A stretch of 44,913 bases of DNA from positions 1 through 44,913 of the forward strand of contig JADZBD010000011.1 in the NCBI GenBank assembly GCA_020852255.1, written 5' to 3'. The position numbers and the translations under genes are program-made. How positions within the stretch are numbered: position 1 is the first letter of the stretch; every line of letters starts with the position of its first letter. Shown piece by piece: positions 36,410 through 42,573 of this stretch. Under the pieces are notes generated by a model. It did not search any database, was not told the DNA's origin, and saw only the letters and a list, made by a program, of their open reading frames with translations. This DNA comes from Bacteroidia bacterium. GTDB lineage: Bacteria > Bacteroidota > Bacteroidia > JADZBD01.

Positions 36410-38197
36410 ATGCTTCTGCTACTGATTGTTATTCTAACCACCCTGCTGCTCTATGCAGGGTTGGCGAAACTTTTCGCCAAGGCCGGCCTCCCAGCCTGGA
36501 AGGCATGGGTTCCCTGGCTGAATTACTACCATTGGATCAGGCTGGTAGAACGCCCCAAGTGGTGGTGGTATGTCACCTTCATCCCTGTGGTGAATATGGT
36601 CGTATTTCTGCTTATCCGCGCCGATCTCGCCAACCATTTCGGAAAACGAAAATTTGCTGAACACTTATTGGTATGGCTCTTTCCCTTCGCGGCATTTATG
36701 TGGTGGGGATACGACGCATCCGTAAAATACACCGGGTATTCTGAAAAAGAAAAAAAGATGAAGTCTGCCGGCAGAGAATGGGCAGATGCCATTGCTTTTG
36801 CCGTTCTTGCCGCCACCATCATCCGAACATTCCTCCTGGAGGCTTTTACCATTCCCACCCCCTCTTTGGAAAAATCGCTTATGGTAGGAGATTTCCTGTT
36901 CGTGAGTAAAGTAACCTACGGTCCGAAACTTCCCAACACCCCCCTCGCACTTCCGTTCATGCATCATACGGTTCCCTTGCTGGGAATTAAATCCTACAGT
37001 GAATGGCTCTCGCTCCCCTATTACCGTCTTCCTGGAATGCGCAACGTAGAACGTAATGATATTGTTGTCTTCAACTATCCTGACGGAGACACCACACTGA
37101 GCTATATGCAGGACCGCAGTTACTACAACGTAGTACGGCAGGAAGCCTTCCTTATGTGGAAGCAAAGTAATGACACGGTTAAAACAATGGCTGATTTCAT
37201 GCCTGCTGCATGGGTATATGTCAATAATCCGTCTAATCTTCCGTCCACCGGAGAGAATTCACCCTTTGGGGAAAAACTTGCCCGTCCGGTGGATAAGAGA
37301 GAAAACTACGTAAAGCGTTGTGTTGGTTTGCCGGGAGATAAATTAGAAGTCAGAGACCGTGTTCTTTTCATCAATGACCAGCCTGCTTATCAGCCCCCCG
37401 ACATGCAGTATTCCTATACCATTGGATTACGGGGCGATGATTGGGCGGAGATTCTTGACGAAATGGACATCACCGGATATACTCCCTGGTGGAAAACAAT
37501 ACCGGGAGGGGAAATCGTCCGCGATACTACCGGCGCATACTTTTTCCGAATTCACGCCACCAGCGAAAAATTCGAGATGCTCAAATCGCATCCCAGCCTG
37601 AGCTTTATTCAGGCAGACATCCAGGAAAAAGGACAGTGGGATTATTCCATTTTCCCTCACAGCCCTGATTACCCGTGGAACAACGATAATTTTGGCCCGT
37701 TTGTGTTGCCCAAAAAAGGAACATCGGTGGAAATCAATGCTAAAAACATAGTGCTCTACGACCGCATTATTGATGTGTACGAAGAAAATGATCTGAAAGT
37801 GGAAAACGAAAAAGTGTATATCAATAATAAAGAAGCCGGTTCATACACATTTAAAATGGATCATTACTGGCTGATGGGAGATAACCGCCATAACTCCGCC
37901 GACTCCCGATCCTGGGGTGTGGTTCCGGAAGATCATGTTGTAGGAACACCGGTGTTCATTTGGCTTTCTATGAAAGACCCGAATTACAATCCGTACAGCG
38001 GTACCCTGAAAGCCGGTAATATTTTCCGGAAGGACGGGAAATTCCGCTACCACCGCATGTTCACTTTTGTGAGCCGCGACGGCCTTTCCGCCTCTTTCCT
38101 GCTCCCTGCCACTATTCTATTTGCTCTCTGGTACGGATACAGCCGCTGGAAAAAGAAAAAAGAAGGAACCAAAAATCCTTCCGCACGTAAAAAATAA
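36410..38197 (+). CDS. lepB: Signal peptidase I with N-terminal DUF5684-like membrane domain
   Basis: 595 residues, longer than most signal peptidases. The first 110 residues carry three or four membrane helices with AGLPAWKAWVPWLNYYHW, a DUF5684-like module. A further helix (FAVLAATIIRTFLLEAF) leads into the S26 catalytic domain: nucleophile Ser in TPSLEKSL near residue 150, base Lys in YVKRCVGLPGDKL near 301, and MGDNRHNSADSR near 489. A large insertion separates these boxes, a feature of Bacteroidota enzymes. A final helix lies near the C-terminus. It cleaves signal peptides at the outer face of the inner membrane. Start ATG 36410 follows dapB by 57 nt. Confidence 0.93.
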   Translation: MLLLLIVILTTLLLYAGLAKLFAKAGLPAWKAWVPWLNYYHWIRLVERPKWWWYVTFIPVVNMVVFLLIRADLANHFGKRKFAEHLLVWLFPFAAFMWWGYDASVKYTGYSEKEKKMKSAGREWADAIAFAVLAATIIRTFLLEAFTIPTPSLEKSLMVGDFLFVSKVTYGPKLPNTPLALPFMHHTVPLLGIKSYSEWLSLPYYRLPGMRNVERNDIVVFNYPDGDTTLSYMQDRSYYNVVRQEAFLMWKQSNDTVKTMADFMPAAWVYVNNPSNLPSTGENSPFGEKLARPVDKRENYVKRCVGLPGDKLEVRDRVLFINDQPAYQPPDMQYSYTIGLRGDDWAEILDEMDITGYTPWWKTIPGGEIVRDTTGAYFFRIHATSEKFEMLKSHPSLSFIQADIQEKGQWDYSIFPHSPDYPWNNDNFGPFVLPKKGTSVEINAKNIVLYDRIIDVYEENDLKVENEKVYINNKEAGSYTFKMDHYWLMGDNRHNSADSRSWGVVPEDHVVGTPVFIWLSMKDPNYNPYSGTLKAGNIFRKDGKFRYHRMFTFVSRDGLSASFLLPATILFALWYGYSRWKKKKEGTKNPSARKK

Positions 38198-38198
38198 G

Positions 38199-39122
38199 GT
38201 GCAGGCCTCCCGCTTACGTAAAAACCTGTTCGCTGCCGCCACGGGAGCTATCCTACTCTACATTGCTCTCCGGCTATTGGTATTTGATATCTATTTTATC
38301 CGAAGCACCTCCATGCGCGGCACACTCTGGGAAGGGGATTACGTGCTCGTAAACAAATGGTTCTTAAATACGCCGGATCGTTACGATATCACGGTTTTTG
38401 AACCTCCTCTTCAGGATTCCTCGTACGGCGGGATCGACAGTTATATCAAACGCTGTGTGGGACTACCCGGGGATACGGTGCTCATCAGTGCCGGTGTCTT
38501 AAAAGTGAACAATGTAGAGCCGCTGATCCCTGAGCTGCTGTTCCAGTATCACATTATGACTTCGGATCAGAAAACGACAGACTCCTTGCAGAAAACTCTC
38601 CTTATTCCACCATCGGGTTTCGTACCGGGCAGCAACGCCTTCTCGGTGTTTCTCCACGCCGGACTTGCCGACAGCATCCGGCTTCTGCCAGGGGTGCTCT
38701 CCGTGGAAGTCACCCTGGATGAAAAGGGCTGGTTCGATAAGAATATTTTCCCTTTCTCCTCTTCTCTGAACTGGAACCTGGATCACTTCGGCCCCATAAT
38801 CGTTCCGGTCAAAGGGATGGAGGTTGCGATGAACGAAAAGAATTATTTGCTCTACAAGGCAATCATTCAGTTCTTTGAGAAAAAGGACATCTCTGCGAAG
38901 AACGGAAAGTACTTCATCGGAGAAACGGAGTGCGGAACATATACTTTTGAAAACGATTATTACTTTATGATGGGAGACAACCGCCATGCCTCCAGTGATT
39001 CACGGGCCTGGGGCTTTGTACCGTCTGACCATATTCGCGGAACCACAGGTCTTATTCTCTGGTCCGTTGACCCCGTAAACGGGAGTACAAGAGACCAGCG
39101 GAGGTTCCGTCTGATTCATTAA
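38199..39122 (+). CDS. Second, shorter signal peptidase I
   Basis: 307 residues with one N-terminal membrane helix (LFAAATGAILLYIALRLLVF). The nucleophile Ser lies in RSTSMRGTLWEGDY, the base Lys in YIKRCVGLPGDTV near residue 83, and MGDNRHASSDSR near 257. All catalytic boxes are intact, so it should be active, not a relic. Start GTG 38199 begins one base after the lepB stop; upstream in-frame codons would lie inside lepB. It is a tandem relative of the upstream lepB without the DUF5684-like domain. Possibly it serves a different set of exported proteins, such as T9SS cargo. Confidence 0.88.
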   Translation: MQASRLRKNLFAAATGAILLYIALRLLVFDIYFIRSTSMRGTLWEGDYVLVNKWFLNTPDRYDITVFEPPLQDSSYGGIDSYIKRCVGLPGDTVLISAGVLKVNNVEPLIPELLFQYHIMTSDQKTTDSLQKTLLIPPSGFVPGSNAFSVFLHAGLADSIRLLPGVLSVEVTLDEKGWFDKNIFPFSSSLNWNLDHFGPIIVPVKGMEVAMNEKNYLLYKAIIQFFEKKDISAKNGKYFIGETECGTYTFENDYYFMMGDNRHASSDSRAWGFVPSDHIRGTTGLILWSVDPVNGSTRDQRRFRLIH

Positions 39123-39156: not shown

Positions 39157-39777
39157 ATGCTGCTTCCCACGTCCTACTTCCCTCCCATCACCTGGATGAA
39201 ATATGCCTTTGATTCCGGATCATTCCGGATCGAATCCATGGAGCACTTCCCGAAACAAACCATCCGGAACCGATGCATGCTGTCGGGGCGGGAAAAGCAG
39301 ATGCTTGTGGTTCCCCTGCGCGGAAGGAAAGATAAGACCCCGACCGGTGAAATCCGGCTCGACCATTCTCAGCCGTGGCAGAGAATTCACCTGCGTACAC
39401 TGCAGGCTTTCTACCGCCGCACTCCCTGGTTTGAATTCTATGAAGATGACCTCGACGGTTTTTTCAAACGGCGCGACGAATACCTGATAGACATGAACGC
39501 TGCGCTGCTGCAAATGCTTTTCCGGTGGCTAAGATCGGACGCAGAATATTCCGTTTCTGCCTCTTACGAAAAACAGGTGCCGGACGGTGATCTGCGCAGC
39601 TGGTGGGATTCAAAGAAGATTCCTGCTGCTGCTATCACTATTCCTGATTACTGGAAAGGATCCGGCAGAACCATTCCGGCAGACCGCTTGACCAGCGTGC
39701 TTGACCTTTTCTTTTACGAAGGAAAAAATACGGGCGAAGTCCTTAAAAATGTCACGGTGCCAGTACCAGCCGTCTGA
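39157..39777 (+). CDS. WbqC family protein
   Basis: 206 residues. LLPTSYFPPITWMKYAF opens the protein and EHFPKQTIRNRCML follows, the signature of the WbqC-like family, which occurs in polysaccharide clusters and next to lepB in Bacteroidota. Enzymatic activity is not established. Cytosolic. A TAATTTTA box at 39120-39127 overlaps the previous stop codon and could drive it separately. Its 3' end overlaps the convergent gene by 26 nt. Confidence 0.85.
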   Translation: MLLPTSYFPPITWMKYAFDSGSFRIESMEHFPKQTIRNRCMLSGREKQMLVVPLRGRKDKTPTGEIRLDHSQPWQRIHLRTLQAFYRRTPWFEFYEDDLDGFFKRRDEYLIDMNAALLQMLFRWLRSDAEYSVSASYEKQVPDGDLRSWWDSKKIPAAAITIPDYWKGSGRTIPADRLTSVLDLFFYEGKNTGEVLKNVTVPVPAV

Positions 39778-40627
39778 CAAATTGTTTCTCACCGGAAAGA
39801 AAACGTACAAAATAAACACCCGGAGAAAAGCCGAGCGTGTGCACACGCGCATCAAAGAAACTGAGGTCCGGCAAGGGCTCCCGGTGAAGAACGGTCCCCG
39901 AGATGTTTAGCAACTCAAAGGTATAATCCTCCCCGGGCAATGCCGGCTCGAAGGTAACGGCGAGCTGTGAAACAGAAGAATAAAACACAGAAATAAATGT
40001 TTTCGGAGTGGAAGTCTGCACTGAAGTTCCCTGCGGTGTGGTGTAGTGAACGGAAACAGAAACCACATCCAGTTTGAACAGCGGCATTGAATCACTGCGA
40101 TTGAACACTTTGAAAAAGACTCCAAAACCGGGATCATTAATTTCAGCGGGTGTCCAGGTCTCTCCCCACAAACCGAGTCCAACGCCATAAACCCGGTTTT
40201 CATCCTGCAAATCCCAGGCTGCACTATCGGGCGTATTTGCTCCCACCATAGCGTAATTCTTGGTCAGACGAATCGTAGAATCGTATACCGCGAGCGAATG
40301 AGAAGCGAAACCGGAGAGCCGCACTTCGATGCCCGTGATTGAAGCATTGGCAGGAATTGAAAACTCAAAGCGGTTAGCGGCCATATACCGCGAGCGATAA
40401 CACATACTTTGAAAACAAAACAGGAAAGGCATTAATTCAGTTTCCGCATATTGATTATCGAACAGCTGCACCTTGTTTTCGTCCGTCCACATGGCGCCCG
40501 CACAGATCGTACAGGATGCCGGGGGATGCGTATAAGTTGAATCAGGCAATGCAACCACTGTCTGCTGCGCAGAGCAGAAAAGCGGAGAAAGCGCCAACAG
40601 AAGTACGGATAGTAAGAACCGCTTCAT
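39752..40627 (-). CDS. Secreted protein with T9SS type A-like C-terminal domain
   Basis: 291 residues with a signal peptide (MKRFLLSVLLLALSPLFCSA). A beta-rich middle domain includes RFEFSIPANASITGIEVRLS, GETWTPAEINDPGFG and VSVHYTTPQ, the layout of predicted secreted beta-sandwich proteins. The last roughly 75 residues (FEPALPGEDYTFELLN to the end) resemble a Por-type sorting domain, with the GVYFVRFLSGEKQF ending. Function unknown. Confidence 0.75.
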   Translation of the reverse strand: MKRFLLSVLLLALSPLFCSAQQTVVALPDSTYTHPPASCTICAGAMWTDENKVQLFDNQYAETELMPFLFCFQSMCYRSRYMAANRFEFSIPANASITGIEVRLSGFASHSLAVYDSTIRLTKNYAMVGANTPDSAAWDLQDENRVYGVGLGLWGETWTPAEINDPGFGVFFKVFNRSDSMPLFKLDVVSVSVHYTTPQGTSVQTSTPKTFISVFYSSVSQLAVTFEPALPGEDYTFELLNISGTVLHREPLPDLSFFDARVHTLGFSPGVYFVRFLSGEKQFVRRLVLAP

Positions 40628-40801: not shown

Positions 40802-42109
40802 ATGAGCGACCGCAGAGAGTTTGTAAAGAAAGTACTCGCAGGGGCGGGAGCCTTTGCGGCCACCGGATGGCTGAACGAATCCTTCGCCGGAAAAATGGCG
40901 CCTCAGCTGAACCGGATAATATCTTTATCACCGCAAGCGGCTGCCTCGGATGAAGCCTTCTGGGAACTTGTACGTAATTCGTTCACCGTTTCGAAGGAAA
41001 TAATAAATCTGAATAACGGAGGAGTAAGTCCGCAGCCCCGGCCGGTACAGGAAGCACATATAAGAAATTACCAGTACTGTAACGAAGGTCCTTCGTACTA
41101 TATGTGGCGCATGCTGGACAAAAGCAGAGAGCCGCTGCGGAAGAAGCTGGCCGAACTGGGAGGATGTGATCCGGAAGAAGTGGCCATCAACCGGAACAGC
41201 ACGGAAGGTCTGAACTCGATCATTTTCGGACTGAATCTTAAACCGGGTGACGAAGTTGTACTGTGCAAATACGACTATCCCAACATGATGAATGCCTGGC
41301 GCCAGAGAGAAAAGCGTGACGGAATAAAACTGGTATGGGTTGATCTTGAATTGCCGTTTGAGTTTGACAAGGCAGCCCATGCTGCTTACGTACGCGCCAT
41401 GACGCCAAAAACAAAAGTGGTACACATAACGCACATGATCAACTGGTGTGGTCAAATGATGCCAGTAAAGGCCATTGCAGAGCATGCCCACTCCATCGGA
41501 GCAGAAGTAATTGTGGACGGCGCGCACACCTTTGCGCACATCGAACATAAAATTCCGGAACTCGGTTGTGATTACTACGCCACCTCCCTGCACAAATGGC
41601 TCTGCGCGCCATTCGGCAGCGGGCTGATGTGGATCAAAAAAAACAAGATCCAGAATGTATGGGCATTGCTTTCGAACGACAAACCGGACAGCAATGATAT
41701 CCGGAAATTTGAGTCGCTGGGCACGCGGAGCTTCGCGAGCGAAATGGCCATTCTGAGCGCAATAGAATTCCATGAGACCATTGGTGGAAAGCGGAAGGAA
41801 GAAAGACTGCGGTACCTGAAAGACTACTGGACACAAAAAGTGATAAAATTTCCAAAGGTCAGAATGAACACGTCACTTCAGCCGGGATGGTCATGTGCCA
41901 TTGCCAATGTATCTGTAGAAGGATGGGACGCTGTGGATATGGAGCAAACACTTTTTGAACGGCATAAAATTCATACGGTAGCCATAAAACATGAGAAGCT
42001 GAACGGCCTCCGCGTTACGCCGCACCTGTACACCAGTCTTGGCGACCTCGACAAACTCATCGAAGGACTTGAGTACATTTCGAAAACCCCTTCCCCGGGT
42101 AAAAAATGA
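40802..42109 (+). CDS. Tat-exported PLP-dependent aminotransferase class V-type enzyme
   Basis: 435 residues. The N-terminus has a twin-arginine motif (SDRREFVKK) and a weakly hydrophobic stretch (VLAGAGAFAATG), so the folded enzyme is probably exported with its cofactor. The catalytic domain resembles isopenicillin-N epimerase-like and cysteine-desulfurase-like class V enzymes: NGGVSPQPR at the start, the PLP-aspartate in VDGAHTFAHIEH, and the PLP-lysine in TSLHKWLCAPFG, about residue 265. Substrate unknown. Its last four bases overlap the start of the RidA gene. An AGGAAAG stretch just upstream may be a ribosome-binding site. Confidence 0.88.
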   Translation: MSDRREFVKKVLAGAGAFAATGWLNESFAGKMAPQLNRIISLSPQAAASDEAFWELVRNSFTVSKEIINLNNGGVSPQPRPVQEAHIRNYQYCNEGPSYYMWRMLDKSREPLRKKLAELGGCDPEEVAINRNSTEGLNSIIFGLNLKPGDEVVLCKYDYPNMMNAWRQREKRDGIKLVWVDLELPFEFDKAAHAAYVRAMTPKTKVVHITHMINWCGQMMPVKAIAEHAHSIGAEVIVDGAHTFAHIEHKIPELGCDYYATSLHKWLCAPFGSGLMWIKKNKIQNVWALLSNDKPDSNDIRKFESLGTRSFASEMAILSAIEFHETIGGKRKEERLRYLKDYWTQKVIKFPKVRMNTSLQPGWSCAIANVSVEGWDAVDMEQTLFERHKIHTVAIKHEKLNGLRVTPHLYTSLGDLDKLIEGLEYISKTPSPGKK

Positions 42110-42573
42110 AGAACACTTTATTCTGGATCACAGCCCTTGCGGCAGTGGCACTGCTGGTCTATCTGAATTTTTTTAAAAAAGATGCCTCTGATCCCGATCC
42201 CGGGATTATCTTCTCTGCTGATGCTCCGAAACCCATAGGTCCTTACAGCCAGGCTGTAAGCAGAGGAAATGCTGTTTTTGTTTCCGGGCAGATTGCAATG
42301 GATCCAAAAACAGGAAAGATGGATACCGCAGATATCGGGCGTGAGACCGAACGGGTGCTGACTAATATCCGGGCAGTGCTCTCCTCCGTGAAGCTGGAAA
42401 TGAAGAATGTAGTGAAATGCACCGTATTTATGACCGATCTTCAGGACTTCAAGGCAATGAATGCCACCTACGCGAAATTTTTTTCGTCGAACCCGCCGGC
42501 ACGGGAAACCGTGCAGGTTTCAGGACTGCCTGCAGGTGCACACGTTGAAATTTCAGTAATCGCTATCCGGTGA
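42106..42573 (+). CDS. RidA family protein with N-terminal membrane anchor
   Basis: 155 residues. A single hydrophobic segment (LFWITALAAVALLVYL, about 5-22) followed by KK precedes a complete RidA domain: PKPIGPYSQAV, VFVSGQI, MTDLQDF and the active-site arginine in PARETVQVSGLP near residue 131. RidA proteins deaminate enamine/imine intermediates that PLP enzymes leak, and are normally cytosolic and unanchored. The ATGA overlap with the Tat-signal PLP gene suggests a working pair outside the cytoplasm, although topology from charge alone is ambiguous. Confidence 0.88.
   Translation: MKNTLFWITALAAVALLVYLNFFKKDASDPDPGIIFSADAPKPIGPYSQAVSRGNAVFVSGQIAMDPKTGKMDTADIGRETERVLTNIRAVLSSVKLEMKNVVKCTVFMTDLQDFKAMNATYAKFFSSNPPARETVQVSGLPAGAHVEISVIAIR

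Follow-up and report, generated by a model that had tools for sequence, protein, structure and literature searches.

A recurrent gene pair in Bacteroidia encodes a Tat-type class V PLP enzyme and a RidA protein with an apparent export segment

The window analysed here, a stretch of 44,913 nucleotides from a genome of the class Bacteroidia, contains a gene for a PLP-dependent enzyme with a twin-arginine N-terminus, followed directly by a gene for a RidA-family protein with an added hydrophobic N-terminal segment (Table 1). It was found that this PLP–RidA pair is real and recurrent among relatives. The most notable new finding is that, whether or not the genes are linked, RidAs with apparent export signals tend to occur together with the Tat-type PLP gene, and this was seen across families within the class. 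We propose that the pair encodes an exported two-enzyme unit, in which a Tat-exported PLP lyase or aminotransferase would be accompanied by a tethered RidA that hydrolyses its enamine or imine outside the cytoplasm, and we put the probability of this reading at roughly 55 %.

Metabolite-damage control has RidA as its model, a protein whose role has been studied in the cytoplasm. If the proposal is correct, an exported RidA together with a Tat-exported PLP enzyme would extend the damage-control idea to the periplasm and would point to a periplasmic amino-acid reaction common to many Bacteroidia.

Table 1. Positions of the two genes and of their main features in the window
Feature	Position	Strand	Basis
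PLP-dependent enzyme, class V (fold type I), with predicted Tat signal at the N-terminus	40802..42109	+	435 aa; Aminotran_5
Predicted twin-arginine signal, residues 1-29, MSDRREFVKK...SFA	40802..40888	+	sequence; cleavage point guessed
Codon of PLP-binding lysine K265 (S-L-H-K)	41594..41596	+	alignment of relatives and PvdN
ATGA overlap, PLP stop/RidA start	42106..42109	+	sequence
RidA-family imine deaminase (predicted) with N-terminal membrane/export segment	42106..42573	+	155 aa; TIGR00004, PF01042
Hydrophobic N-terminal segment, RidA residues 2-22	42109..42171	+	helix in model; uncharged core
RidA domain, residues 34-155, with Y47, G61, N119, R133 and E148 kept	42205..42570	+	alignment

Identity and Tat signal of the PLP enzyme

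In a Pfam profile search the PLP product scored 131.7 bits against Aminotran_5, with a cut-off of 21.5. Its AlphaFold2 model (pLDDT 90.9) matched, in order, PvdN (Z 46.2, rmsd 1.9), the Synechocystis cystine C-S lyase C-DES (Z 44.2, rmsd 2.0) and then SufS enzymes. The residues K265, H264, D239, H242 and R404 were invariant in all 37 aligned relatives, and K265, D239 and H242 align with the K, D and H of PvdN. Y159 was likewise invariant in the 37 relatives, while PvdN has a histidine at that position. The Aminotran_5 score, the fold match to PvdN and the invariant K265 together place the enzyme in fold type I/class V.

PvdN was the top match by sequence (E 2.9e-28) as well as by fold, and PvdN and PtaA, periplasmic proteins of Pseudomonas, resemble the window enzyme in being fold type I PLP enzymes with Tat export. 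However, identity to PvdN was 23 % and the PvdN equivalog profile gave 127.8 bits where 650 are required, so that assignment as a PvdN orthologue was rejected; the enzyme is most PvdN-like, yet is not PvdN. It also differs from PvdN in being paired with a RidA gene, and no pyoverdine genes were seen beside it. C-DES, with which it has the fold in common, is 22 % identical to it. The C-DES reaction passes through aminoacrylate, and we know of no export signal in C-DES. Assignment as a SufS-type cysteine desulfurase was rejected too: the SufS/CsdA enzymes have the class V fold in common with the window enzyme, but its match to the sufS profile was below threshold (128.6 against 475.1 bits) and K389 stands at the position of the catalytic cysteine, as read from the alignment to 7tlq, a C375S mutant. 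Since that cysteine is absent, a persulfide mechanism is unlikely, and beta-elimination, transamination and deamination are the candidate reactions.

The predicted N-terminus, MSDRREFVKKVLAGAGAFAATGWLNESFAG, carries RR-x-F, runs on through a hydrophobic stretch and closes with small residues. The DRREFVKK motif, together with TatC and two TatA/B/E genes in the genome, indicates a Tat substrate, in agreement with the initial annotation, which had described the enzyme as beginning with a twin-arginine signal. Tat scoring over 196 loci left 121 distinct loci scored, 10 duplicates and 65 loci unscored, the last having an anchor motif that was missing or too close to the N-terminus. RR-x-F/L/M was present in 109 of the 121 distinct scorable relatives and a variant such as RK in the other 12; among the scored RidA-linked loci, RR was present in 20/20. 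In two relatives (L116 and L126) the motif reads RK instead of RR and the hydrophobic stretch is followed by a cysteine (in L126 within LSGC), and these PLP enzymes are possibly lipoprotein forms.

The likeness to PvdN could also be read differently: both proteins would be exported and the PLP enzyme would tailor an exported metabolite in a PvdN- or PtaA-like manner, with RidA performing a specific pathway deamination rather than general clean-up. Such a role would be consistent with the best sequence and fold match, as PvdN tailors pyoverdine in the periplasm (PMC6206403). Against it stand the missed equivalog cut-off, the fact that no biosynthetic gene cluster was seen around the pair, and the finding that the family recurring close by on the same strand is RidA. 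We consider this tailoring role rather unlikely.

The RidA protein and its orientation

The RidA product passed the curated cut-offs of TIGR00004 (151.5 bits against 106.25) and PF01042 (128.8 against 27.3). It thereby resembles the RidA/YjgF/UK114 imine deaminases, with all five catalytic positions kept, and differs from them in its added N-terminal export or anchor segment. Known RidA is cytosolic. Y47, G61, N119, R133 and E148 were identical in 153/153 RidA domains (62/62 signal-bearing and 91/91 signal-less, the window's included); the catalytic roles of these Tyr, Gly, Asn, Arg and Glu positions we take to be those of E. coli RidA. The genome has three RidA-type genes, namely that of the window, a 125-aa RidA without the extension and a divergent 132-aa one.

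Both the overlap of the two genes by ATGA and the added membrane segment, as described in the initial annotation, were recovered. Residues 3-23 form a 21-residue uncharged core, with a charge of +2 in the N-flank and -1 in the C-flank, and the model (pLDDT 88.9) has a helix over almost the same residues. An ORF artefact at this N-terminus was considered and rejected, there being no Met between the segment and the domain, so that a later ATG start cannot skip the segment. In many unlinked signal-bearing RidAs (e.g. L213, L227, L241 and L345) a Met stands after the signal and directly before the domain. This Met is perhaps an old start codon, and genes of this kind could produce both exported and cytosolic forms, which the window's gene cannot.

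The initial annotation had the RidA domain exported, and had named a cytoplasm-facing domain as the finding that would count against this. The evidence points outward, with exceptions. Among the 23 linked RidAs, 17 had a higher charge in the N-flank than in the C-flank, 4 had equal charges and 2 had the higher charge in the C-flank. In the window RidA two lysines come directly behind the segment, and the case for an outward RidA from charge is weaker for it. The variety of N-termini among the relatives is a stronger argument than the flank charges. Assigned by eye plus a hydropathy rule, these include Sec-type N-termini (L019, L067, L226, L242, L259, L350 and L371), whose signals end in FSQ, FAQ or HSQ (e.g. 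L019, L067, L226, L242, L259 and L371), lipobox-type N-termini (L227, L229, L234, L241, L265, L285, L290, L345 and L380) and uncleaved-looking anchors.

These observations bear on the alternative that RidA is anchored N-out, C-in, with its domain in the cytoplasm, where it would clean up after the PLP precursor or other enzymes before export. The lysines of the window RidA and the exceptions in flank charge (2/23 reversed, 4 tied) would fit such a topology, and Tat cargo is folded and can be active before export. However, the charges favour the opposite topology in 17/23 linked RidAs, the lipobox- and Sec-type N-termini of the relatives are unlike N-out anchors, and a RidA without a signal is already encoded elsewhere in the genome. 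A cytoplasmic RidA domain is improbable in our judgement, and a domain outside the cytoplasm, as in the proposed exported unit, appears the better reading of these N-termini.

Conservation of the pair and co-occurrence of its members

With the PLP protein as query, 46 loci were found among public genome contigs, and within the class to which the window belongs 172/395 genomes gave matches at E 1e-60 or better. Gene neighbourhoods were read at 196 loci, the window included; 184 of these were of sufficient length and differed from one another in their last 375 residues. A RidA gene lay directly downstream on the same strand in 21 of these 184 distinct loci, which bears out the conservation of the pair that the initial annotation had proposed to check. 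Two further linked cases are fragmentary, one with the PLP gene split by a frame break (L201, genome G057) and one at a contig end (L212, genome G038). Every linked RidA has an N-terminal hydrophobic segment; four RidAs farther downstream of the PLP gene (L146, L178, L180 and L182) are without one. In Roseivirga (L033, L035, L038 and L039), a cultivated relative, the PLP gene is present with no adjacent RidA. On the PLP tree, the distribution of linked loci requires 8 changes, 4 of them forced by starred branches, which indicates either repeated gain of the RidA link or several losses of it. The pair was not found on plasmids in a search of 72,556 plasmid records.

RidA was the commonest neighbour family of the PLP gene (25 loci, the four distant ones counted), and its tight distance recurs. 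LepB-type, WbqC, carboxyltransferase and T9SS-type genes also recur near the PLP gene, though less closely spaced than RidA. In the window, two overlapping ORFs at 36410-39122 are candidate signal-peptidase-I-like proteins, a label given by reading of the sequence. In other Bacteroidota, too, the PLP gene repeatedly has signal-peptidase-like, WbqC and carboxyltransferase genes in its surroundings. The divergent upstream gene at 39752-40627 (-) has a sub-threshold match to a T9SS sorting domain (19.1 against 23 bits), and a gene resembling it is also found upstream of the PLP gene at L006. At seven loci (L047, L116, L126, L138, L144, L155 and L162) a conserved gene for a membrane protein of about 280 aa lies 3' of the PLP gene, at a distance of -1 to 11 bases. 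This protein, whose L155 copy had no Pfam match, is a possible alternative partner of the PLP enzyme.

The association was also seen where the genes are unlinked. Thirty PLP-positive and 30 PLP-negative genomes were picked in list order, minus those already seen. Under an ATG-only rule, which required an ATG start and a hydropathy of 1.8 or more over 12 residues, a signal-bearing RidA was present in 10/30 PLP-positive and 0/30 PLP-negative genomes (p 8e-4). The counts for the same genomes were 8 against 0 at a hydropathy of 2.0, 11 against 0 with GTG/TTG starts, and 12/30 against 0/30 (p 1.2e-4) under the loosest rule (hydropathy 1.6), which probably admits false positives (L247, L248 and L253), so the ATG-only counts are given too. 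Had the left-out genomes been counted, the PLP-positive group would have gained ten positives and the PLP-negative group one (G014), with G026 unassigned. Counted by family, signal-bearing RidA was found in 23/41 families holding the PLP gene and 0/17 without it (p 2.4e-5).

Among the 139 genomes with a retrieved RidA, in which high-scoring RidAs are over-represented, 40 PLP-positive genomes had a signal-bearing RidA and 41 did not, while 3 PLP-negative genomes had one and 55 did not. As 41 of the 81 PLP-positive genomes show no signal-bearing RidA, it is not obligatory. Three genomes (G014, G093 and G177) have a signal-bearing RidA and no PLP gene at threshold. G014 and G093 belong to the same family as G057, whose linked PLP gene is frame-broken, and G177 is 84 % complete, its genus mates being mostly PLP-positive. 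Within that family, the signal-bearing RidA of G057 is kept beside the frame-broken gene (L201/L220), and no PLP gene lies upstream of the retained signal-bearing RidA in G014 (L221) or G093 (L223).

When relatedness was controlled for by testing independent pairs on the RidA tree, the result pointed the same way, with 3.6 for and 1.0 against out of 7 pairs, but the test had no power (p 0.375), so that shared ancestry may account for the co-occurrence. Export signals of several kinds have been gained or lost repeatedly by RidA: under the loose rule, the signals change 23 times on the best RidA tree, which has 116 columns for 153 rows and many open forks, and at least 8 of the changes are forced by starred branches. 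It is very unlikely that the exported RidA is instead a chaperone or has some other role, its pairing being an incidental co-transcription in related lineages, for although E. coli RidA has been reported as an HOCl-activated chaperone (PMC4284807) and the pair test was not significant, co-occurrence was seen for unlinked genes and by family, and the deaminase residues are intact in every signal-bearing copy.

A proposed exported unit and its cytosolic counterpart

In the proposed exported unit, the PLP enzyme would fold and take up PLP in the cytoplasm and would then be exported by Tat, as suggested by its signal, the tat genes and the precedent of PvdN; both PvdN and PtaA are loaded with PLP in the cytoplasm before Tat export to the periplasm (PMC6206403). 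Once outside, the enzyme may carry out a beta-elimination or a transamination/deamination of an amino compound and would release a free enamine or imine such as 2-aminoacrylate. RidA, which its N-terminal segment presumably tethers to the inner membrane on the outer side, and which in relatives apparently has a lipoprotein anchor or a Sec signal that is cleaved off, would turn the released product into a keto acid and ammonium, an activity predicted from the conserved residues. Since by analogy with PvdN the cofactor would be loaded before export, PLP spoiled by 2-aminoacrylate should be hard to reload outside, and local clean-up should therefore matter more there than in the cytoplasm. If this is correct, losing the exported RidA should inactivate exported PLP enzymes.

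The initial annotation had held that imine chemistry in the periplasm lies outside the known RidA picture. This stands as far as RidA is concerned, but not for the PLP enzyme, as periplasmic PLP enzymes are already known in PvdN and PtaA. No report of an extracytoplasmic RidA was found in searches of an open-access literature library. In a term search, the words periplasm, signal peptide, membrane and extracellular were absent from the main text of a survey of the Rid family (PMC4433059), and OngD is described as a 127-aa RidA, with no signal mentioned in the available text (PMC9537276).

A broader reading is that imine chemistry outside the cytoplasm is so common in Bacteroidia that RidA repeatedly gained Sec, lipoprotein and anchor signals in lineages with a Tat-exported class V PLP enzyme, as a dedicated extracytoplasmic damage control guarding a non-reloadable cofactor. 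We hold this tentatively, at slightly less than even odds.

Three loci (L178, L180 and L182) have, downstream of a relative of the window PLP gene, a class V PLP gene without a signal and, immediately after it, a RidA that likewise has none. The signal-less class V copy at L180 is 27 % identical to the window PLP enzyme, and the relative of the window PLP gene at the same locus has an N-terminus with a K-R variant of the Tat motif. The presence of a signal-less enzyme with a signal-less RidA suggests that this enzyme class and RidA are coupled within a single compartment, whichever one the enzyme occupies. The signal-less pair would be a cytosolic counterpart of the exported one.
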